Assembly (NCBI GenBank): GCA_904420445.1
Contig: CAJFVJ010000001.1
Span: 569,266-633,265, forward strand
Length of the DNA: 64,000 nucleotides
Source of the DNA: Candidatus Adamsella avium
GTDB lineage: Bacteria > Cyanobacteriota > Vampirovibrionia > Gastranaerophilales > CAJFVJ01
Direction: 5' to 3'
This document shows, in pieces, positions 42,065-53,211 of the stretch; position 1 is the stretch's first letter, and each line of letters starts with the position of its first letter. Position numbers and translations under genes: made by a program. The notes under the pieces were generated by a model. That model had not been told where the DNA came from, did not search any database, and saw only the letters and a list, made by a program, of their open reading frames with translations.

Positions 42065-42091
42065 TAAAGACTTTTTTGTCGGTGCCGATAA
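42065..42091 (+). promoter_or_regulatory. Sigma-28 (FliA)-type promoter
   Basis: TAAAGACT (42065-42072), 11 bp, GCCGATAA (42084-42091). The -10 is a perfect match to the flagellar sigma-28 consensus (TAAAGTTT-N11-GCCGATAA), with the -35 at 6 of 8 and exact spacing. It is the only such motif I found in an intergenic region here. A start near 42097 is expected. Confidence 0.75.
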
Positions 42092-42096
42092 ATATA

Positions 42097-42175
42097 GTAT
42101 AAGACCGAAAGGTCATACCCCAACCTCCTCCCCAAGTCTAGTAGCCGTCCAAAAATGGATGGCTTTATTTTTTTG
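42097..42175 (+). ncRNA. Candidate sigma-28-dependent small RNA with anti-Shine-Dalgarno tract
   Basis: A predicted 75-80 nt RNA. The 5' stem is GTAT-aa-GACC GAAA GGTC-ATAC (42097-42118), capped by a GNRA loop. An unpaired C-rich stretch follows: CCCAACCTCCTCCCC (42119-42133), which contains ACCTCCT, the same sequence as the anti-Shine-Dalgarno end of 16S rRNA. The 3' end is the terminator at 42143-42174. Two hairpins around a CU-rich single strand is the layout of the cyanobacterial sRNA Yfr1, whose core is ACUCCUCACAC; the sequence is different, so homology is not claimed. The adjacent regulator has a GGAGGTT ribosome binding site, complementary to AACCTCC (42122-42128). Confidence 0.6.
42143..42174 (+). 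terminator. Intrinsic terminator of the candidate sRNA
   Basis: AGCCGTCC (42143-42150) pairs with GGATGGCT (42157-42164), followed by TTATTTTTTT. The T tail overlaps the last codons of the minus-strand kinase-like gene. Confidence 0.8.
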
Positions 42176-43045: not shown

Positions 43046-45457
43046 TTAACCTGCGTTTAGCATCTCTGTGTTGTTTTTTATGTATTTAAAGAGTTGAGGG
43101 TAATCTGATAGGCTGTTATTTGATATAAAATCAAAGGCAGCTTTTCGAGCTTGATCGAGGATTTCTGTGTCGTTTGCTATATCTGCAATAAGCAAATCAG
43201 CGACACCGCTTTGTCTTGTCCCCATAAATTCGCCCGGACCTCTGATTTGAAGGTCTTTTTCTGCGATGATAAAGCCGTCGTTTGTTTGAGTCATTATGTT
43301 CAGGCGCTCAAGTGTTTCAGGTGTTTTTGAGTTGCTAATCAACACGCAATATGATTGTTTATCGGAGCGTCCGACACGTCCTCTGAGCTGATGCAGCTGG
43401 GAAAGTCCGAAACGTTCTGCGTTTTCAATAATTATTACCGTAGCATTCGGCACATCCACTCCGACTTCGATTACTGTTGTGCTGACTAGGATTTGATATT
43501 TGCCTTTTCTAAAGTCCTCCATGATTTCATCTTTTTCCTGCGGAGGCATTTTTCCATGCACGAGTCCTATGCTGTATTGAGGAAATACTTCTTCTTGCAG
43601 GCGTTTTGCTTCTTTTGTTGCCGCTTTAGCAGAGAGAGTTTCAGATTCTTCTATCAGAGGGAAGACTATGTAGACCTGATTTTTTGATATGATTTCCTGT
43701 TTTATGAGGTTGTAAGCTTTTTTTCTCTCAGAAGCCGTTAGGAGGGCTGTTTTTACCGGTTTTCTTCCTTTTGGCAGTTCATCTATGACAGTGATATCAA
43801 GGTCGCCGTGTACTGTGAGAGCAAGTGTTCTCGGAATTGGTGTTGCTGTCATGGTAAGCATTTCCGGATTTATGCCTTTGTTTTTCAATTCAAGACGCTG
43901 TTTTACGCCAAATCTGTGCTGTTCGTCAATGACGACAAGTCCGAGGTTGTTGAATTCTATGCCTTCTTGTATAAGGGCATGGGTTCCTATTGCGAGATGA
44001 ATTTGACCGTTTTTGAGGTTTTGGCGCATTTCTCTTCTGACTTTTGCTCCGTGTTTTCCGACGAAAAGACCGACGCTCAATCCGAGAGGGGTAAGCCAGT
44101 TTACAAAATTTTTGTAGTGCTGTTCTGCGAGAATTTCTGTCGGCGCCATGAGTGCTGCCTGGTAGCCGTTTTCTATTGCGCTAAGGATAGCGAGGCAGGC
44201 GACAACTGTTTTCCCGCTGCCGACATCACCCTGAAGGAGTCTTTGCATAGGAGTTTTATCCTGCAAGTCTTTCAAGATTTCATTGAAAGCGTTATTTTGG
44301 GCAGAGGTAAGAGTGAAGGGGAGGGAGTTTATGAACTGATGTACAAGTCCGTTTTCTTTGATTCCGATGATGTTTCCTTCCTGTGAAATTTTATTCAGCT
44401 GTCTTATATAAGCAAGACGGAGTTGTATGAGAAAGAGTTCTTCGAATATGAGGCGTCTTCTCGCTTTATCCAGGATGTCCTGTGAACTCGGGAAGTGGAT
44501 TTGTCTGATTGCCTGTTGTTTTGAAAGCAGGTTGTATTCATTGATGATTGGAGGAGGGAGAACTTCGTTCATGTATTCCGCATATTTTTCTATGGCGTTG
44601 TGAATAGCGTTTCTGAGGGTTTTTATGTGGAGGTTTTCGCTGAGCGGGTAGACAGGGACTATTCTCCCGAGGTGAAGGCTTGTCGGTTCAGAGTTCTCGT
44701 CGAAGTCTCCGGAGAGGATTTGTTCCTGAGGTTTGTCGATTATAATTTGACCTGTGTATTCATCACGTTTGACTTTGCCTGAGAGGATGATGTTGGCTCC
44801 TTTTTTGAAGCGTGATTTGTATCGTTCGAGGGTATATCTGTTTGTTTTTCCGTAGAACCAGCTTGCCTGAACAGTGCCTGTTGAGTCATATACCTGTATT
44901 GTGATGATTGAGAGGTTTTGTTTGCGGTGAGAGGTGTAGGCGTTGACTGATTTGATTGTGCCGAAGATAGAGGCATCGGTTCCTTCTTCGAGGTCAGCGA
45001 TGCAGGTTCTTATGGAGTAGTCGAGGTATTTTCTCGGGTAGTATTTGAGGAGGTCTTCTGCCGTGTAGATGCCCATTTTGTTGAAGATATTTGCAAGTTT
45101 CGGACCTACTCCTTTCACATACATGACGTCTGTTTGGTCTGGAGTTTTTGTGAAAGGTGCTGTTGAAGATGATTTTGTTTTTTGAGGTTCATCGTCTTCA
45201 GGGTGGTTCAGGGTGTTTATGAGGTGTTTTACGGCTTTGATTCTGCCTGCCACGTTGTCGAGCGGGTAGTTTTCGAAAATTTTAATGAGGTTTTTCAGTT
45301 TCGGGTTAGATTTATCCTGTTTGAGGATTTCTTTGAGTTCTTGCAGCATAAAACTTGAGAAAGTGTGTGACTTTCCTCTTATGTCTATGTAGTGGTTGTC
45401 TATTTCTATTTCTATTGCTTTTTTTAGAGTTTCAAGATTAGTTATTTTGATTGTCAT
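43046..45457 (-). CDS. recG: ATP-dependent DNA helicase RecG
   Basis: Rescues stalled replication forks and branch migrates Holliday junctions. The 803-residue product has the N-terminal wedge/OB domain and a full helicase core: QGDVGSGKTVVACLAI (Walker A), VIDEQHRFGVKQR (DEQH box), TATPIPRTLALT, STTVIEVGVDVPNATVI and QLRGRVGR. The length is slightly above the usual 690-780 because of an N-terminal extension of about 100 residues. Its first 20 bp overlap the end of the upstream cyclase gene, so the two are coupled. Confidence 0.96.
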   Translation of the reverse strand: MTIKITNLETLKKAIEIEIDNHYIDIRGKSHTFSSFMLQELKEILKQDKSNPKLKNLIKIFENYPLDNVAGRIKAVKHLINTLNHPEDDEPQKTKSSSTAPFTKTPDQTDVMYVKGVGPKLANIFNKMGIYTAEDLLKYYPRKYLDYSIRTCIADLEEGTDASIFGTIKSVNAYTSHRKQNLSIITIQVYDSTGTVQASWFYGKTNRYTLERYKSRFKKGANIILSGKVKRDEYTGQIIIDKPQEQILSGDFDENSEPTSLHLGRIVPVYPLSENLHIKTLRNAIHNAIEKYAEYMNEVLPPPIINEYNLLSKQQAIRQIHFPSSQDILDKARRRLIFEELFLIQLRLAYIRQLNKISQEGNIIGIKENGLVHQFINSLPFTLTSAQNNAFNEILKDLQDKTPMQRLLQGDVGSGKTVVACLAILSAIENGYQAALMAPTEILAEQHYKNFVNWLTPLGLSVGLFVGKHGAKVRREMRQNLKNGQIHLAIGTHALIQEGIEFNNLGLVVIDEQHRFGVKQRLELKNKGINPEMLTMTATPIPRTLALTVHGDLDITVIDELPKGRKPVKTALLTASERKKAYNLIKQEIISKNQVYIVFPLIEESETLSAKAATKEAKRLQEEVFPQYSIGLVHGKMPPQEKDEIMEDFRKGKYQILVSTTVIEVGVDVPNATVIIIENAERFGLSQLHQLRGRVGRSDKQSYCVLISNSKTPETLERLNIMTQTNDGFIIAEKDLQIRGPGEFMGTRQSGVADLLIADIANDTEILDQARKAAFDFISNNSLSDYPQLFKYIKNNTEMLNAG

Positions 45458-47342
45458 GTTTAATTTCTATTACTTCGTGGATTGTGACGCTTGATATTCT
45501 TCCTTTTATTGATACATCACGTATTTTGATTGTATTGACGATATCTTTGACTTTTTCGTAGGTTGATGAGCTTATTAAGAAAGAGGTGTTGTAGACTCTG
45601 TTGAGTGATTCTATTCTGCTTGCTATATTGACGCTGTCGCCGATTACTGTAAATTCCATCCGGTCTTTTGAACCGATGTTGCCTATAAACACGTAGCCTG
45701 TATTGATTGCAACACCTATTCTTATTTCAGGTTTGTTTGATATTTTCCATTTATAGTTGAGTTTTTTCACTTCGAGCAGAATTTCTTCGGCGCATAGGAC
45801 AGCGTTTTTGGCGTGGTTTTCATCTTCTATCGGTGCTCCGAAGATTGCCATGACTGCATCGCCCATAAATTTATTGAGAGTTCCGTTGTATTTGTCTATT
45901 ATCGGGGCGATTAGGGAGAAGTATTCGTTGAGGAGCGAGGAAACTTCTTCCGGGGTGTAGACTTCCGAGATTGATGTAAATTGTCTTATATCAGCAAACA
46001 GAACCGAAACGTAGGCTCTTTTTCCGCCGAGTTCAGCTGTTTCGTTTTTGAGGACATCTTTCATAACTGATTTTGAGATATATTTACTCATGACGTTTTT
46101 GAGATTATTTCTGCTTCTTCCTGCGAGGAAGTATTTGTATACAAATGTAAGGGAGTATGCCAGCAGAACGAAGCTGAGAGGTGTTATAACATCAATGATA
46201 TATCCGTTTGCGAAGAAGATATTTTTTGCTATATAGAACCACCCGAGGATTATTGTTATGAGGGTAAGAAGGGAATAAATAATAGGCAGCTGTTTTGCTG
46301 TTTGAACAGTGAGAATGACAAGCACTGCAAGGACGATAAGGTTTAGAGCGAGGCTTGTTTTCTTCATGAAGTCGTTGTTGATGATGTTATCGATGAAGGT
46401 TGCCTGTATTTCGAGCCCCGGGTAGTCCACGCCTATGGGAGTTTTTTTGATATCGTTGAGGGCGTAAGCTGTTGCCCCTACTATTATAATTTTGTCTTTG
46501 AATTCTTCTTGAGGAATCGGAGGTTTTTCTCCTTTTTTCATTTTGTTGTAAGAATCAAGAATGTCAGAAGCGCTGTAAGTTTTGTGAGTGATGAAGTTTA
46601 CGTTTTGTTTTGATGGTTTGTACCATTGCAGGTAGACTTCGGAGTTTGTTTTGTCGAGGGGGATTGTGATGTCGCCGAGGAGGAGAGTGTTATTTTTGTA
46701 GGCAAGAGAGTTTATGTTTTTATATTTCATTGCGGCTTTTATGCCGACAGAGGGGTAGAAAGTTTTGTTGTGCCGGAATATCGGGCTTAGTTTTCTGATT
46801 ACACCGTCGTTATCAGGGAGAGTTGATACAGAGCCTATAGAGTGAGCATTTTTAACCAAATCTTCAGGAAGGTTTGCATAATACTGATATTCTATCAGCC
46901 GCATTTGTTTTCCGTTTTGGATATCTACCGCAAAGGGGGTCATATTTATTGTTGAATTTTGTTCTTTGTTGCAGAAGAATGTGCCGAGGATGAGGTTATC
47001 CATTTTTTTCAGTCTTGAGAAGAATTTTTTGTCTGATTGGATGTTATCTGATGAAGTGATAACAGAGTCAAAGACTATGACTTTTGCATCTTTGACATAT
47101 TCGAAGATATTTCCGTAGAGATTTCTGTTCCAAGGCCATCTGCCGACTTTTGAGAGGGAGTTTTCGTCTATTGCAATGTTGATAATTTGTGAAGACGGGG
47201 TATTCGAGAGGTTCATCCTCGAGAAGAGGTCATGCACTGATGGTTCTACAAAATATTGATTTGTAAAATAAGTAATTATGCAGAGCATGGTTATTATTAT
47301 AAAAATTATGAATTTATGAAAGTTGTTTGAATATTTTTTCAC
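45438..47342 (-). CDS. CHASE2-domain adenylate cyclase
   Basis: Membrane-bound class III nucleotide cyclase. The 634-residue product has a first membrane helix (about 9-28), an extracytoplasmic CHASE2 sensor (about 30-325, with NIAIDENSLSKVGRWPWNR and IIVGATAYALNDIKKTPIG), three membrane helices (about 335-410), and the catalytic domain (445-615): SVLFADIRQFTSIS and KFMGDAVMAIFGAP (metal-binding Asp residues), RIGVAINTGYVFIGNIG, and FTVIGDSVNIASRIE. The K in KFMGDA and D in IGDSVN suggest ATP rather than GTP. Start is GTG with AGGGTG upstream. It makes cAMP in response to an unknown external signal. Confidence 0.92.
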   Translation of the reverse strand: MKKYSNNFHKFIIFIIITMLCIITYFTNQYFVEPSVHDLFSRMNLSNTPSSQIINIAIDENSLSKVGRWPWNRNLYGNIFEYVKDAKVIVFDSVITSSDNIQSDKKFFSRLKKMDNLILGTFFCNKEQNSTINMTPFAVDIQNGKQMRLIEYQYYANLPEDLVKNAHSIGSVSTLPDNDGVIRKLSPIFRHNKTFYPSVGIKAAMKYKNINSLAYKNNTLLLGDITIPLDKTNSEVYLQWYKPSKQNVNFITHKTYSASDILDSYNKMKKGEKPPIPQEEFKDKIIIVGATAYALNDIKKTPIGVDYPGLEIQATFIDNIINNDFMKKTSLALNLIVLAVLVILTVQTAKQLPIIYSLLTLITIILGWFYIAKNIFFANGYIIDVITPLSFVLLAYSLTFVYKYFLAGRSRNNLKNVMSKYISKSVMKDVLKNETAELGGKRAYVSVLFADIRQFTSISEVYTPEEVSSLLNEYFSLIAPIIDKYNGTLNKFMGDAVMAIFGAPIEDENHAKNAVLCAEEILLEVKKLNYKWKISNKPEIRIGVAINTGYVFIGNIGSKDRMEFTVIGDSVNIASRIESLNRVYNTSFLISSSTYEKVKDIVNTIKIRDVSIKGRISSVTIHEVIEIKHDNQNN

Positions 47343-47412
47343 CGAATTAACACCCTATATAAGATTTTCTTATATATAATATAGCATTAATCAGCTAAGT
47401 GGGGTAGTTATT

Positions 47413-49137
47413 TCAGTCTACGACGATTGTTTTTTCTTCGGTGTAGGTGACATATCCTGGTTTTGCTCCGGGTGGTTTTTTGAGATATTTTCTTTTTGTA
47501 TAGATAATTTCTACTTTTTTCGAATTTCTTCCCTGAGAGTAGTGCGCTGCAAGTTGAGCGCCTCTAAGCAGGATATTATCAGGAGGTGTTTCTTCGCCCG
47601 GGGGGAGTTTTATCAGGATGTGCGAGCCAGGCATATTTTGTGCATGCATCCATATATCATTCGGTCTTGAAAGTTTTGAGACGATGTAGTCGTTTTGTTT
47701 ATTATTTTTGCCTATGAAGATTGTATATCCGTCGATTTCTTCGCTGTCAAGTTCAATAGTATTTTTTGTTTTTTGTTTTTGAGGTATTGGTTGTGTGTCA
47801 TCCATAATTTTTTGTGATATCAATTCTTCTTTGATTTCGAGGAGGGTTGATATTTTGTCTGCATAGTTTGTTGAGGTTTGAATTTCAAGAAAATAATATA
47901 GTTCTTCTTTGAGTTTTTCTATTCTTTGTTTATTCATAACCATTGCGGTTTTGGCTTTTGAGTGGAGCTTGTAGTATTTTTGTATGTTATCATTCAGGCT
48001 TATTGCCGGATTGAGGGAGATTGTTATGTCTTTGTTGTTGTCATAGAAGTTTTTGAGAGTTACGGAGTCTTGTTTTTCGGTGAGCATATAGAGGTTTGCT
48101 GCAAGGATATCTCCGATTTGTTTGTATTTTAAGGCTTTTTCTTCGTCATTTGGAGTCGGGGTCAGTTTTTCGATTTCTTTTTTGAGGTATTTTATATTTT
48201 TGTTTGTGATATTTAAGATTTTATTTTTGATTTTGTTCATTTTATCTTCGAAGACAAAGTGTCCGAAGTAGTCATTAAGCATTTCATTTATTGAGCTGAA
48301 GTATGTTCTGTTATTTTCTTCTTTGAAAGAGAAGAGAGAATAAGTACTTTTATCGCTGCTGATTGAAGGGTTGAGAGCCGATGAAAACAGTGCAGAGCGG
48401 GTTTTGTCATAGAGGTCGAAAATTTTTTGAGTTTCGATAGCGGAAATTTTTTCGAAGTCGTCTTGTATGTTGCAGCAGTCGCAGAGTTCTTTTGCCATGG
48501 CGACGCTTATGTCAAAATAGAGCTGATTGAGCTCCCAGAATACAGGTTGATGCAGGAGTTTCATATCCTGAAAAAATTCTTCTTTTGAAGTTGAGAGGAT
48601 ATCTTTTTTTTGAGGCTGCTCAGGGTAGATATAAGGCAGCCCCCCTGATAGCTCTCGAACTCTGCTTTTTTCTGCGCCGATGTTGTGAGCGCAGCCGATG
48701 ATAGTTTTATCAGAGCTTTTATATAGGATAATATTGCTGTATTTCCCCATCAACTCGATAGTAAGGACGAGTTCTTCGATGTCTCCAAGTTCACTGTAGC
48801 TGTCTATAAAAATTTCGAAGATTCTTTCATGTTTAGGTATATTAATTTTTTTGATTTTTGAGCCTTCAATATATTTACGGAGCAGCATGCAGAACATTGG
48901 CGGTTTTTGAGGGTTTTCTACTTCTCTTTGCGCTTCCCCATGCTTTGTCAGAACACACAGATGCGGGTATTGAGGGTTTATGTTTATATAAAGAGGATAG
49001 TTTTGTCCGAGAGAGCGGATATTAAGAATTATTTCTTTTCTTGATGGCTGCTGAATTTTTTGTATACGCCCTGAAGTTAGCAGCGGGGCGAATTCAAGAC
49101 CAAAATATTTCAGGCATAATGAGTCGAAGTTAATCAT
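47413..49137 (-). CDS. rqcH: RqcH/NFACT ribosome quality-control factor
   Basis: Recognises tRNA-bound stalled 50S subunits and adds C-terminal Ala tails in other bacteria. The 574-residue product begins with the NFACT-N domain (YPLYININPQYPHLCVLT, PPMFCMLLRKYIEGSKI, ELMGKYSNIILY), has a long coiled coil in the middle (about 290-430), and ends with the NFACT-R domain: GYTIFIGKNNKQNDYIVSK, DIWMHAQNMPGSHILIKLP and AAHYSQGRNSKKVEIIYT, then PPGAKPGYVTYTEEKTI. The DR/AR-type motifs needed for tRNA contact appear intact. No clear ribosome binding site. Confidence 0.92.
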   Translation of the reverse strand: MINFDSLCLKYFGLEFAPLLTSGRIQKIQQPSRKEIILNIRSLGQNYPLYININPQYPHLCVLTKHGEAQREVENPQKPPMFCMLLRKYIEGSKIKKINIPKHERIFEIFIDSYSELGDIEELVLTIELMGKYSNIILYKSSDKTIIGCAHNIGAEKSRVRELSGGLPYIYPEQPQKKDILSTSKEEFFQDMKLLHQPVFWELNQLYFDISVAMAKELCDCCNIQDDFEKISAIETQKIFDLYDKTRSALFSSALNPSISSDKSTYSLFSFKEENNRTYFSSINEMLNDYFGHFVFEDKMNKIKNKILNITNKNIKYLKKEIEKLTPTPNDEEKALKYKQIGDILAANLYMLTEKQDSVTLKNFYDNNKDITISLNPAISLNDNIQKYYKLHSKAKTAMVMNKQRIEKLKEELYYFLEIQTSTNYADKISTLLEIKEELISQKIMDDTQPIPQKQKTKNTIELDSEEIDGYTIFIGKNNKQNDYIVSKLSRPNDIWMHAQNMPGSHILIKLPPGEETPPDNILLRGAQLAAHYSQGRNSKKVEIIYTKRKYLKKPPGAKPGYVTYTEEKTIVVD

Positions 49138-49176
49138 TTTTTGAAGTTTATCTTAATATTTCTTTATAAATTTGAA

Positions 49177-49311
49177 TAAAATTGTTTAGAAACAAAAAAA
49201 AAGTGGAATTAATCACATGTAAGAAAAAAAATCTTACTTAAAAATTTTCTCTCTCTAATTCCTCTCTCTAATATGTGGTAGACTTAACCGACGCGAGTCG
49301 GTCTTTTTTTT
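49177..49311 (+). ncRNA. Candidate CU-rich small RNA
   Basis: No CDS lies on the plus strand between 49138 and 49310, but a strong terminator is present at 49287, implying a short transcript. A promoter TTGAAG (49141-49146)-N18-TATAAA (49165-49170) would start it near 49177. The RNA would contain hairpin GTAAGA-A7-TCTTAC (49219-49237), then a tandem repeat CTCTCTCTAATTC / CTCTCTCTAATAT in an unpaired region, then the terminator. The layout is like the 42.1 kb RNA. Confidence 0.45.
49287..49310 (+). terminator. Intrinsic terminator of the CU-rich RNA
   Basis: ACCGAC, GNRA loop GCGA, GTCGGT (49287-49302), then CTTTTTTTT. Very strong by eye. Confidence 0.85.
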
Positions 49312-49344
49312 GCAAATTTTTTTGTTGAGGAGGTTTATTCCTCA

Positions 49345-49388
49345 TAAAAAAACAAAACTTCCAAGAATAGAGGAAGTTTTGTTTTTTG
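49345..49388. terminator. Bidirectional terminator behind bL25
   Basis: AAAACTTCC (49354-49362) pairs with GGAAGTTTT (49372-49380), with runs of A on the left and T on the right, giving U tails on both strands. It stops the minus-strand bL25 transcript. Confidence 0.8.
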
Positions 49389-49396
49389 TGAATTGA

Positions 49397-49678
49397 TTAT
49401 ATAACTTTAAATTCTACGTTTAATTCTTCAGTTGTTCCATAGTTGATTTGGAGGTTTTGAACAACTGTTTTATAAGTTTTTTTGCCGAGTTTCAGTTCAT
49501 ATACGGCGTCTTTGTTATCTCTATAGATGTGTTTGAATTCATGAGTGTTGATTTGAGCAGACACTGAGTCCATTCCTTTTCCGTAGATTGTGATTGGAAG
49601 ATTGCCGTTTGCTCTGATTTGTCTTGGGTTTTGACCTTGTGTTCTTTCTTCTATATCGAGAGTTATTGTATTACTCAT
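49397..49678 (-). CDS. rplY: 50S ribosomal protein L25 (short form)
   Basis: bL25 binds 5S rRNA. The 93-residue product starts with ITLDIEERTQGQNPRQIRAN, then GNLPITIYGKGM, EFKHIYRDNKD and KTVVQNLQINYGTTEELNVEF, the L25 fold without the C-terminal TL5/CTC extension. Length matches E. coli L25 (94). Confidence 0.88.
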   Translation of the reverse strand: MSNTITLDIEERTQGQNPRQIRANGNLPITIYGKGMDSVSAQINTHEFKHIYRDNKDAVYELKLGKKTYKTVVQNLQINYGTTEELNVEFKVI

Positions 49679-49756
49679 TGTTTTCTCCTTTTTTTATTAA
49701 CAGTAATAGTTATTATATACGGAACAAAAATTATTTAACAATTAAAATTAAAAAAT

Positions 49757-50008
49757 TTAAAGAATGTTTAAAATAAGTGAATAAATTATCTGCAGAACAA
49801 AGAATGCTGCTATCGGAGAGAAGTCTATTCCTGCTATTGGAGGGATAATTCTTCTGAATGGAGCGAGTATCGGTTCTGATACGTCGTTTATGAACTTAAA
49901 CGGTTGTTTGTACCAGTCAACACGTGGAAACCAGCTCAGAGCTATTCTTAGAAGAAGAATCAGATACAGTAGTGTAAAGAGATGAGCGATAGCTTCTTTG
50001 AATTCCAT
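49757..50008 (-). CDS. YggT-family membrane protein
   Basis: The 83-residue product has two membrane helices and the family signature: LRIALSWFP, KFINDVSEPILAPFRRIIPP and FSPIAAFFVLQII. YggT proteins are linked to cell division and thylakoid/chloroplast organisation in other lineages; exact function here is unknown. It lies 12 bp after mtnP. Confidence 0.9.
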   Translation of the reverse strand: MEFKEAIAHLFTLLYLILLLRIALSWFPRVDWYKQPFKFINDVSEPILAPFRRIIPPIAGIDFSPIAAFFVLQIIYSLILNIL

Positions 50009-50020
50009 TTTTATATCTCC

Positions 50021-50815
50021 TTAAACATTTGATGAGTTGGCACAGTTGCAGTGATTACGCTCATCAGGGATATTTTCTATCAAAGTGAAGAGAAGTTTTT
50101 TGAGTTTTTCGTTGTTTTCTTTGAATACTTTCAGGACTGCTTCATGGCTTACCGGTTCTGTATCGCTGACAAGACCTGCGTCATAGTCCGTAATGAGAGA
50201 GATGTTGAGCGGGCACATATCCATTTCTTTGACGAGGTAAACTTCCGGGTATTGAGTCATGTTAATAACATCCCAGCCGTTTTCTGTGTAGAATTTTGAT
50301 TCTGCTTTTGTGCTGAATCTCGGTCCCTGAATTACCAGAATAGTTCCTGTTTCATGGACTTTGATGTTGTTTTGTTTTGCTGCTTCTATTGCAAGTTTTC
50401 TAAGTTCCGGGCAGTAGGGGTCAGCTGCGCTGATGTGTTTAATCTGCGGACCTTCGAAGAAGGTGTCGCATCTTCCCCAGGTTTTGTTTACGAACTGGTC
50501 GCAGATGACAAAACTTCCCGGTTCGACATGTTTTTGAAGACTGCCTGCTGCGCATGGAGAGATAACTCTTTTTATGCCGAGAGATTTCATTGCCCAGACA
50601 TTTGCTCTGTAGTTAATTTTGTGAGGGGCAATTCTGTGGTCTGCGCCATGCCTTGGAAGGAAGGCTACTTTTTTGTTGCCGATTGTTCCAATGGTAATTT
50701 TATCACTCGGGTCTCCATAAGGAGTTTCGACTGATATTTGTTTTGTATTATCTAAAAATTCATAGAAACCTGAACCGCCAAATACGCCGATATCAGCCAG
50801 AACTTGTTGCTGCAT
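50021..50815 (-). CDS. mtnP: S-methyl-5'-thioadenosine phosphorylase
   Basis: Cleaves methylthioadenosine from polyamine synthesis to adenine and 5-methylthioribose-1-phosphate. The 264-residue product has GVFGGSGFYEF, LPRHGADHRIAPHKINYRAN, SPCAAGSLQ, VIQGPRFSTKAES and NMTQYPEVYLVKEMDM, the complete MTAP pattern with the phosphate-binding loop and MT(Q/E/P)-x-x-E. The very last residues contain a C-N-C motif. Its presence fits the PLP decarboxylases and ureohydrolase that point to polyamine metabolism. Confidence 0.95.
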   Translation of the reverse strand: MQQQVLADIGVFGGSGFYEFLDNTKQISVETPYGDPSDKITIGTIGNKKVAFLPRHGADHRIAPHKINYRANVWAMKSLGIKRVISPCAAGSLQKHVEPGSFVICDQFVNKTWGRCDTFFEGPQIKHISAADPYCPELRKLAIEAAKQNNIKVHETGTILVIQGPRFSTKAESKFYTENGWDVINMTQYPEVYLVKEMDMCPLNISLITDYDAGLVSDTEPVSHEAVLKVFKENNEKLKKLLFTLIENIPDERNHCNCANSSNV

Positions 50816-50893
50816 TAATTTTCTCTCCTATGTCTTATTATGATTATTCTTTTTATCATAAAAGAGAGGATTTTTAAAGCAGCTGATTACGGG

Positions 50894-51010
50894 ATTTCCA
50901 AAACAACGTCATACTGAGCGTTAGCGAAGTATCTAAACAAAAAGGATTCTTCTTGATTTATCCCTCATAATGACTGACTTTTAATAGTATCTGTGGAATT
51001 TGCTATATAA
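50894..51010 (+). repeat. MITE-like intergenic element, copy 2 (left end lost)
   Basis: A 117-bp copy reading CCAAAACAACGTCATACTGAG at its left and ending with the terminal repeat GTGGAATTTGCTATATAA (50993-51010). The left terminal repeat is missing, so this copy is truncated. It lies between mtnP and the small ORF at 51020. Confidence 0.8.
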
Positions 51011-51019
51011 GTTCCCAGA

Positions 51020-51202
51020 TTATTTTGACATGGAGGATATTTTAGCCAGTTTAAATTTATTCAGCTGTGACATTAGAATAAACTGTTGAATATTGAGTTG
51101 GTGCAGCTCGCCTGATATGTCTTTTATCAGGAATTTATTTCCTGTCTTTAATATATTGCTGTAGCAGTTGCAGCCATAAAAAAATTCAAATTCTTTGGAC
51201 AC
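51020..51202 (-). CDS. Small hypothetical protein, GTG start
   Basis: A 60-residue frame starting with GTG: MSKEFEFFYGCNCYSNIL, then GNKFLIKDISGELHQLNI. Two Cys in GCNC and a plausible beta pattern support coding, but the ribosome binding site (AAGAG) is weak and no family is known. It ends 9 bp from copy 2 of the repeat element. Confidence 0.4.
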   Translation of the reverse strand: MSKEFEFFYGCNCYSNILKTGNKFLIKDISGELHQLNIQQFILMSQLNKFKLAKISSMSK

Positions 51203-51381
51203 GTTCTTTTACTCTTAGCCTAACATTATATTTATAATAACAATTTTTTCGGAATAGAATTTCATTTTTCATGAAAAATGTTATAAAAGTTAATGTTTTT
51301 GAAAAATGTTTAAAAATTTTTCTAACGTGGAATATATTAGATAGAGTCTATGGAAAGAACACCAATACAGGATGTATTAAT

Positions 51382-51801
51382 ATGGGCATTGACGGACTTA
51401 CAAACTTGAATTTGGGACTGCTCAGAGAAGTTACTCCATCTGAGTTATTGAATTATGTCAAACAGGATGCTGATGAGCAGGCAAGCAAGATATTCAAACA
51501 GATAGAAAATTCTGAAAAAATAAAACTTAATCCTGATTCTCAAAAGAAACATGAGAACGCAGAGTCTTTTGAATTTGATAAAAAGAAAGAAAATGAAGAT
51601 GACGAAACTGCACCGGAACAGACATCTACAGAAGTTATTGAGGATAAAAACCGCATTGCATGCAGATTGCAGGATGAGTGTGTTGAAATTATTGATTCCA
51701 ATACGGGAGAGGTGATAGAAAAAATTTCTGTTGAACAGCTCAAGAAATTTTTTGCCCATATAAAAAATCCATCAGGTCTTCTTGTTGATAAATCGGGTTA
51801 A
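51382..51801 (+). CDS. flaG: FlaG-like flagellar protein
   Basis: From the ATG at 51382 (AGGAT upstream) the product has 139 residues: a Lys/Glu/Asp-rich N-terminal part without secretion signal, and a C-terminal FlaG-like block CRLQDECVEIIDSNTGEVIE followed by KISVEQLKKFF. FlaG proteins influence filament length and attach near FliD/FliS in many flagella; this match is on that block only. First of three genes with fliS and a fliT-like gene. The upstream frame to 51271 is less likely to be translated. Confidence 0.6.
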   Translation: MGIDGLTNLNLGLLREVTPSELLNYVKQDADEQASKIFKQIENSEKIKLNPDSQKKHENAESFEFDKKKENEDDETAPEQTSTEVIEDKNRIACRLQDECVEIIDSNTGEVIEKISVEQLKKFFAHIKNPSGLLVDKSG

Positions 51802-51886
51802 ATAATATTTTTATAGGATAAAAATTTTTCTGTATTAATAAATAATTAGAAGGAAGAGTATCAATTTTTGTTGGCATGTTATACAG

Positions 51887-52318
51887 ATGAATCCGAATCC
51901 TTATTTAAAACAATATCAAAAGACGCAGATAACAACGGCATCTCCTGAGAAGCTTCTTATTATGCTTTATGACGGAGCAATTCAATATTCGCTGCAGGCA
52001 AAAATTCATCTTGAGAACAAAAATATATCTGAGGCGCATACTCTTCTTTTGCGGGCACAGGCGATAGTTACAGAGTTTATGTCTTCTTTATCGTTTGACC
52101 CTAATCCTGAGGTAGCGAGAAATTTGTATAGTTTGTATGATTTCATAAAATACAAACTTATTCAGGCAAATATCAAACATGATCCGACGATGATAGATGA
52201 TGCCGTTGATATTCTAAAAACACTTAAATCAGCATGGGAAGAGGCGATTGTAATAGCGGCAAAAGAACGGAAAGAAAAAGAGGGCTCTGATGAGGATTCC
52301 TCTTCTCATACGGTTTAG
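51887..52318 (+). CDS. fliS: Flagellin chaperone FliS
   Basis: Keeps flagellin monomers unfolded for export. The 143-residue product starts with NPYLKQYQKTQITTASPEKLL, the defining FliS N-terminus, and has LIMLYDGAIQYSLQAK and the last helices in DAVDILKTLKSAWEEAI. A Glu/Asp/Ser-rich tail follows. Normal length. Confidence 0.95.
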   Translation: MNPNPYLKQYQKTQITTASPEKLLIMLYDGAIQYSLQAKIHLENKNISEAHTLLLRAQAIVTEFMSSLSFDPNPEVARNLYSLYDFIKYKLIQANIKHDPTMIDDAVDILKTLKSAWEEAIVIAAKERKEKEGSDEDSSSHTV

Positions 52319-52338
52319 TTTATCGGGGACAAACAACA

Positions 52339-52671
52339 ATGGACAAGCTGCGGGAAATTTATGAGTTAACTGATGAGCTTTTGGTATCAATCAAAAGAGC
52401 TGACTTTGATGATGTTATCAAACTTGTTGAAAAAAGAGCGGAGCTTGTAAAGGAATATATTAATTTGCAGAAAACATGCGAATCTGAAGAAGAAAAAGAA
52501 CTTCTTTCAAAAATAAAGCAAAAGAAACATGAAGCGGAAACTTTGTTGAAACAAGCTCAGCTTAATACAGGTAAAGAACTGAAAACAATTTCTTCAAATG
52601 CAAAAGCTGTTTCCGCATATAAAATCATGAAAAACATTCAGCCTGTTTTTTTCAGTGAAAAAGATATGTAA
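52339..52671 (+). CDS. FliT/FlgN-like flagellar chaperone
   Basis: The 110-residue product is all helical (YELTDELLVSIKRADFDDVI, EKRAELVKEYINLQ, KKHEAETLLKQAQL) and lies 20 bp behind fliS, which is the usual position of fliT, the FliD chaperone. The sequence itself is poorly conserved, so the call relies on context and helical pattern. Confidence 0.55.
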   Translation: MDKLREIYELTDELLVSIKRADFDDVIKLVEKRAELVKEYINLQKTCESEEEKELLSKIKQKKHEAETLLKQAQLNTGKELKTISSNAKAVSAYKIMKNIQPVFFSEKDM

Positions 52672-52674
52672 AAA

Positions 52675-53211
52675 TTATTCTACAGGTATTAACAATTTTT
52701 GTCCGATAGAAATTCTATGCGGATTTTTCAGATTATTTTTTTGCTGAATTTTTGAAGCTCCGCTAATTGTGCCGTAGAATTTCAGAGAAATACTATCAAG
52801 TGTATCTCCGCTTTGGACAGTGTATTCTTTCAGTGATGTTGTTTGTGTTGCAGGATTGACTTCGTCGGCCGGAGCAACATTCAATGCAACGGGTGCGTTC
52901 GAAGATTTTTTCCATGCAGTGTAATCTATATCATTTGTCGATGTAGAATAGAATATAGATGTCATCAAGAATGTGCAGATTGAACCGATAACAAATCCCA
53001 TAGCAAGCAGCGAAGCAGTAGAACGGGTTGCTCCTTTTGCTGTATTTGACTTGAGATCCTGCCAGAGCAAATCAAGGTCTTTGTCCTTGTTGTTTCTCAT
53101 ATAAACACCCGGTGATGATGTCAGCGGACGTTTTTTGTCTGAGATGAGTTCTTCTAATACGGCAATTCTTTCTTTGGATAAATTGGATCTGTGGAGAGTA
53201 CTGCTTTTCAT
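52675..53211 (-). CDS. LysM-domain membrane protein
   Basis: The 178-residue product has a basic cytoplasmic N-terminal part (about 1-65), one membrane helix (about 68-90, LLAMGFVIGSICTFLMTSI) and a C-terminal LysM domain (about 127-175): KEYTVQSGDTLDSISLKFYG and PHRISIGQKLLIPVE. LysM binds peptidoglycan or related glycans, so it should sit at the cell wall. Convergent with the fliT-like gene; 3 bp apart. Confidence 0.88.
   Translation of the reverse strand: MKSSTLHRSNLSKERIAVLEELISDKKRPLTSSPGVYMRNNKDKDLDLLWQDLKSNTAKGATRSTASLLAMGFVIGSICTFLMTSIFYSTSTNDIDYTAWKKSSNAPVALNVAPADEVNPATQTTSLKEYTVQSGDTLDSISLKFYGTISGASKIQQKNNLKNPHRISIGQKLLIPVE

Follow-up and report, generated by a model that had tools for sequence, protein, structure and literature searches.

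An intrinsic terminator on the plus strand, with no gene before it on that strand, raises the question of whether a small RNA (sRNA) gene ends there and, if so, what such an RNA may do. The terminator lies in a stretch of 64,000 nucleotides, hereafter called the window, from the genome of Candidatus Adamsella avium, a member of the Gastranaerophilales whose assembly comprises 2.1 Mb in three contigs. An earlier inspection of the letters alone (the sequence-only reading) had pointed out this strong terminator and proposed a candidate sRNA with a duplicated CU-rich box. We found that the locus is a conserved, free-standing gene with a conserved promoter-like element, an unpaired core, a terminator of its own and neighbours that change between genomes; the sRNA reading is strongly supported.

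Layout of the RNA gene

The RNA gene is located on the plus strand, and the genes on both sides of it, encoding an NFACT-family protein (47413-49137) and ribosomal protein L25 (49397-49678), are on the minus strand, which agrees with the proposed lack of a preceding plus-strand gene. A predicted promoter of the sigma-B/SigJ J-box type is found at 49184-49209 and consists of GTTTAG (49184-49189), a 14-nt spacer and TGGAAT (49204-49209). The predicted sRNA is about 90-94 nt long (49218-49311), its 5' end being placed from the promoter and its 3' end from the terminator. It had been drawn as extending from 49141 to 49311; the 3' end stands, but the start is probably near 49218, since 49184-49209 is taken up by the promoter. 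The internal elements proposed for it are all present in the sequence: a 5' hairpin formed by GTAAGA (49219-49224) and TCTTAC (49232-49237), two tandem 13-mers that differ at two positions (49249-49274), namely box 1, CTCTCTCTAATTC (49249-49261), and box 2, CTCTCTCTAATAT (49262-49274), and an intrinsic terminator (49287-49311) in which ACCGAC and GTCGGT enclose a GCGA loop (49287-49302), followed by C and T8.

This terminator was the top-ranked plus-strand match in a scan of 45000-53000, a region that holds 13 terminator-like sites against 5.5 +/- 2.7 in shuffled sequences. In the predicted fold of the 94-nt RNA, two hairpins enclose a CU-rich core that is unpaired in the centroid structure over about 38 nt or more. 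The structure by itself is just mildly unusual, because 9 of 200 shuffled sequences fold equally well (z -2.08), and it is conservation, not the fold, that raises the sRNA above chance. The core at 49273-49281 also reads ATG-TGG-TAR, with the TAG or TAA stop retained in most lineages, which is probably a coincidence.

Distribution and conservation of the family

The sRNA is single-copy in its own genome (E <= 0.001). A blastn search with 49170-49330 recovered copies in 18 of 60 relatives, own genome included (E <= 4.2e-9), and a 22-mer scan allowing up to two mismatches gave matches in 14 of 194 genomes of the class; one of these (L045, in genome G089) was rejected as a chance match with two mismatches and neither promoter nor terminator. 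Within the genome_contigs collection, 59 stretches contained the exact 22-mer; their titles name Gastranaerophilales or Galligastranaerophilus in 43 cases, Melainabacteria or Cyanobacteria in four, 'bacterium' in 11 and 'uncultured Clostridia' in one. In total, 87 loci matched; removing duplicates left 68 when the long stretch was compared and, with L057 omitted, 42 when the RNA stretch was. With a covariance model (R1) built from 42 distinct sequences, the family was detected at E <= 0.01 in 91 of the 286 genomes searched in the order, and these belong to 30 of 50 genera (training-set genomes included). Of these 91 genomes, 85 matched at E <= 1.7e-5 and six weakly (E > 1e-4); the window copy (G000:C1:618512-618575), itself in the training set, scores E 3.9e-18. 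At the sensitivity of the covariance model, the sRNA was not found in the large genera of family f2 (g3 and others). One genome (G233) carries, beside the canonical copy, three near-identical, degenerate extra copies (L191, L192 and L193) with a common 90-nt upstream flank. They have neither a clean terminator nor an exact TTCCTC, and their arrangement suggests dispersal as part of a mobile element or a repeat.

The conserved part of the RNA is the core AATTCCTCTCTCTAATATGTGGTA (49257-49280 in the window), which includes box 2. About 24 nt of unpaired sequence are near-invariant; it should be noted that selection by the exact 22-mer in part presupposes that these letters do not vary, and that the blastn loci (L002-L019) and the divergent covariance-model loci (L180-L199) are less biased sets. 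Two loci were kept out of the alignment (A1): L018, which lies at a contig edge, and L057, which has the 22-mer without GTGGTA and the promoter and was retained among the 65 promoter sequences. In the divergent copies, which are weaker matches to the covariance model, the second box and its flanks are kept, roughly as AATTCCTCTCT(C)TRATAYRTRGT; most of AATTCCTCTCT and the terminator hairpin persist, whereas box 1 degenerates in several genera. The repeated box, whose conservation the sequence-only reading had proposed to check, is therefore conserved, with less variation in the second copy than in the first. The 5' region differs from lineage to lineage: the 5' hairpin is present in a genome of the same genus (G001) and is not conserved in other genera, and in family f7, where the 5' stem is not conserved either, the boxes are preceded by a short leader only. 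A GC hairpin followed by a T-run is found in nearly all copies, the stem being kept while its sequence changes by lineage. RNAalifold predicted three pairs, two of them with changes on both sides.

Promoter type and candidate sigma factor

The consensus upstream of the sRNA is GTT(T/A)(A/T)A-N12-14-(G/T)GGAAY. The pattern GTT-N14-19-(G/T)GGNA occurs in 59 of the 65 unique upstream sequences, against a mean of 4.0 and a maximum of 11 in 100 rounds of dinucleotide shuffling, the 59 of 65 being a descriptive figure since the pattern was derived from the same, related sequences. By eye, four of the six misses retain GTTAYRAA...AGAGGAATAG; L057 and L078 have neither. A sigma-70 promoter was considered and rejected, as its pattern was found in 8 of the 65 sequences against 9.1 expected, and the best sigma-70 call at the promoter of the window copy reached only 9/12. 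The strict form GTTTAA-N13-14-GGGWA showed no enrichment across the own genome (5 versus 12 in the control). In genus g35 (L180-L184, L188-L190 and L195), the place of GTTWWAA upstream of the sRNA is taken by a conserved inverted repeat, GTGTAAAA..TACACG, that has the appearance of an operator or of a -35 region peculiar to the lineage.

Both the SigB promoter of B. subtilis, RGGXTTRA-N14-GGGTAT, and the -12 element of Synechocystis SigF, GGTAA, as described in PMC2758279, resemble the sRNA promoter. The closest of the promoters compared is the J-box of Nostoc SigJ, given as an extended -10 element GGGaAtacT (PMC6495340), which resembles the GGGAATAAT and GGGAATAGT found upstream of the sRNA; unlike the J-box, the sRNA promoter also conserves GTTWWA at the -35 side. 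Most of the 65 upstream sequences have a GGGWA-type extended -10 element at a fixed spacing from a GTTWWA-type -35 element, as in sigma-B/SigJ-type promoters. The evidence for a promoter of this type is good, and we infer that a sigma factor of the same kind reads it. The own genome encodes a SigF-type sigma factor (NF005644, 204.8 bits, below the cut-off of 261). Its gene ends where that of a prepilin peptidase (type IV leader peptidase) starts (L227:1437-3193, G000:C3); SigF is reported to control pilus genes in Synechocystis (PMC2758279). The SigB/F/G-like sigma family was present in 188 of 188 genomes searched, also where the sRNA was not found, and its presence is useless as a predictor of the sRNA.

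The sequence-only reading had also likened the RNA to another candidate in the window, at 42.1 kb, and this kinship did not hold. The 42.1 kb RNA (42065-42175, plus strand) has TAAAGACT-N11-GCCGATAA at 42065-42091, which we take to fit the sigma-28 (FliA) promoter consensus, followed by CCCCAACCTCCTCCCC, an anti-Shine-Dalgarno stretch, and a terminator. It has a different core (CCTCCTCCCC) in addition to the sigma-28-like promoter and, as far as can be seen by eye, appears unrelated by sequence to the CU-boxed sRNA. It was found by blastn in all 30 genomes searched, own included, with several copies in some, and is possibly a separate, flagellar-sigma-driven sRNA family.

Proposed mode of action and relation to known RNAs

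With moderate confidence, we regard the RNA as a trans-acting sRNA of the Gastranaerophilales that would be expressed from an alternative-sigma promoter and whose tandem core would pair with Shine-Dalgarno regions. RNA polymerase with a sigma factor of group 3 (SigB/SigF/SigJ-like) would start near 49218 and stop at the terminator near 49311, and the resulting transcript would expose the single-stranded tandem CU-rich core between two hairpins. The most conserved part, UUCCUCUCUCU, which is anti-Shine-Dalgarno-like, would pair with the GA-rich Shine-Dalgarno regions of several mRNAs, thereby blocking ribosome binding; the two boxes may provide redundancy or serve two target sites. The 3' end of the own 16S rRNA reads CACCTCCTTTCT, and the CU-rich stretch of the sRNA resembles this anti-Shine-Dalgarno sequence. 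Shine-Dalgarno pairing appears most likely because the sole strictly conserved part of this free-standing RNA is an unpaired, CU-rich, anti-Shine-Dalgarno-like stretch.

Target scans gave enrichment at the level of Shine-Dalgarno sequences only and no conserved target. Sites of the form AGAGAGGAA-N1-9-ATG numbered 55 against 26 in the control (17 genomes), and no conserved target was seen among them: the 52 of 55 places that were read gave 35 frames of at least 45 aa, with a single protein family in common, which we take to be ribosomal protein S8. Antisense 13-mers, with one mismatch allowed, were as frequent as in the reversed control over 21 genomes (74 versus 74); no fewer than 24 of these 74 matches are to the sRNA gene itself, and the control contains AAGGAG and hence is not neutral. 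In the own genome, TTAGAGAG-N2-12-ATG was not enriched (9 versus 14), and duplexes with the own rRNA region (6.5 kb) were nothing beyond chance (-27.2 versus a shuffle mean of -28.4 kcal/mol). Because these searches found no target, our confidence in pairing is no more than moderate, and titration of a protein is its chief rival. Two further points weigh against the explanation as a whole: the near-invariant stretch exceeds the usual sRNA seed and would fit a protein-binding site too, and the related sigma factor scores below curated cut-offs and occurs in every genome searched, including those where the RNA was not found.

As a protein-titrating decoy, the RNA would bind a pyrimidine-binding protein (e.g., Rho, or one of the Hfq or KH type) through its tandem CUCUCUAAU boxes, as CsrB-type RNAs do for CsrA. 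The tandem repetition of one motif, the length of near-invariant unpaired sequence, and the failure of the scans to reveal a conserved mRNA complement or a complement beyond chance in the own rRNA region are all consistent with such a role. However, box 1 has decayed in several genera that retain box 2, so that repetition is not essential, and one or two sites are few for a decoy. Moreover, the AUAUGUGGU part is likewise conserved and is not pyrimidine-rich, and the nearest analogue, Yfr1, works through base pairing. We consider titration unlikely.

Yfr1 of the cyanobacteria, the sister lineage of the non-photosynthetic, gut-dwelling Gastranaerophilales, is closest to the sRNA in architecture. 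It is described as having a 5' stem-loop, an unpaired CU-rich stretch with the ultraconserved ACUCCUCACAC, and a GC-rich 3' terminator hairpin with a U-tail, and as preceding guaB in 25 of 31 genomes (PMC2190773). Yfr1 is reported to bind mRNAs at the ribosome-binding region (PMC6974561), and Yfr10 to have a motif in common with it, the UCCU of which is required for the binding of ppa by both RNAs; changing UCCU abolished Yfr1 binding (PMC6778093). The Gastranaerophilales sRNA is likewise a short, free-standing RNA with a hairpin, an unpaired CU-rich stretch and a terminator. Its fold in the window has two stem-loops around the unpaired stretch, the 3' one being the terminator (the 5' stem is not conserved in f7), and its conserved block contains UCCU. 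The best ungapped match between the motifs is 8/11 (ATTCCTCTCTC versus ACTCCTCACAC), which is suggestive at most, being equalled by 238 of 5000 core shuffles, and the exact Yfr1 11-mer was found in none of the 292 sequence records examined (1.17 Mb). In contrast to Yfr1, which measures 54-69 nt with 16-20 nt unpaired, the window sRNA is about 90 nt long, with the unpaired stretch given above, and its core is longer and tandem; nor does the family have a fixed position at guaB, its 61 loci showing 44 neighbour pairs (NFACT and L25 in the window). Because size, motif and guaB synteny fail, we have not filed the sRNA as Yfr1. It might still be the Yfr1 counterpart, both descending from a CU-rich sRNA that existed before Cyanobacteria and Melainabacteria diverged, with the gut lineage having duplicated the box and gained group-3 (J-box) sigma control, a descent that we rate as distinctly improbable.

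The conserved motifs of Yfr1 and Yfr2 are reported to be nearly complementary (PMC6778093), and the long invariant core of the present sRNA could similarly have another sRNA as its main partner, as in the Yfr1-Yfr2 pairing of cyanobacteria. However, a recurrent antisense site was not seen in 21 genomes, and the one other sRNA candidate of the window, at 42.1 kb, is itself pyrimidine-rich, which makes an RNA-RNA sponge very unlikely.

That the locus ends in a terminator would also suit a cis element, whether the 3' end of a preceding mRNA or a leader or attenuator of the gene that follows. This is already contradicted, and we give it hardly any weight. The window neighbours are both on the other strand, and the promoter element belongs to the sRNA itself. 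In the 61 unique loci with both neighbours readable, the 44 neighbour pairs include 39 downstream protein clusters, with MnmE, PanD, IlvH and UPF0102 among the neighbours, and the downstream gene is read in the same direction as the sRNA in 32 loci and in the opposite direction in 29. A cis leader is excluded because the neighbours vary and the downstream gene takes either strand. Read-through from another gene, the alternative that the sequence-only reading had allowed for, does not account for the terminator; the sRNA has a predicted promoter and a terminator of its own and neighbours on either strand, as expected of a free-standing trans-acting sRNA gene.

Least probable of all is a small coding gene with the two-codon frame ATG-TGG-TAG/TAA, since, even if the third codon remains a stop in most lineages, a CU-rich sequence stands in place of a Shine-Dalgarno sequence ahead of the ATG, and the frame reads ATG-TGA in L010-L012 and ATG-TTG in L005 and L008 and lacks the ATG in L017. 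ORFs of at least 150 aa that seemingly run over the core (L035, L037, L071 and L082) were rejected as frames that extend back to the preceding stop and start within the RNA; translation of these genes probably begins further downstream.

A search of the window against Rfam 15 at the gathering threshold returned two tRNAs and no family at the sRNA; a permissive search of 49100-49340 gave NmsRb (19.7 of 52 bits) and the ylbH leader (17.5 of 50) as the best sub-threshold matches, and five relatives had no match at the sRNA. LhrC of Listeria, as described in PMC4132741, is similar in having redundant CU-rich motifs, one of them single-stranded between two stem-loops, that bind Shine-Dalgarno regions. 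It differs in having UCCC in three sites, five gene copies, control by LisR and an unrelated lineage, whereas the Gastranaerophilales sRNA has UUCCUCUCUCU, mostly one copy and an alternative-sigma promoter, and UCCC is absent from the window RNA (49218-49311). Rli47 of Listeria is a SigB-controlled sRNA. RsaA of Staphylococcus aureus is likewise reported to be transcribed from a general-stress-type (SigB) promoter (PMC9266662); both are like the present sRNA in this respect, but no sequence kinship with it was seen, and Rfam gave no match. Our search of open-access literature turned up no earlier description of an sRNA from Gastranaerophilales or Melainabacteria.

In summary, the locus represents a real, new and widely conserved sRNA family that is ordinary in kind and unusual in its lineage, its conservation and its promoter. 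The covariance model and the strictly conserved core make the sRNA testable in metatranscriptomes. The sRNA could also serve to monitor the activity of a sigma factor of these gut bacteria and to examine whether Yfr1-type regulation predates oxygenic photosynthesis.
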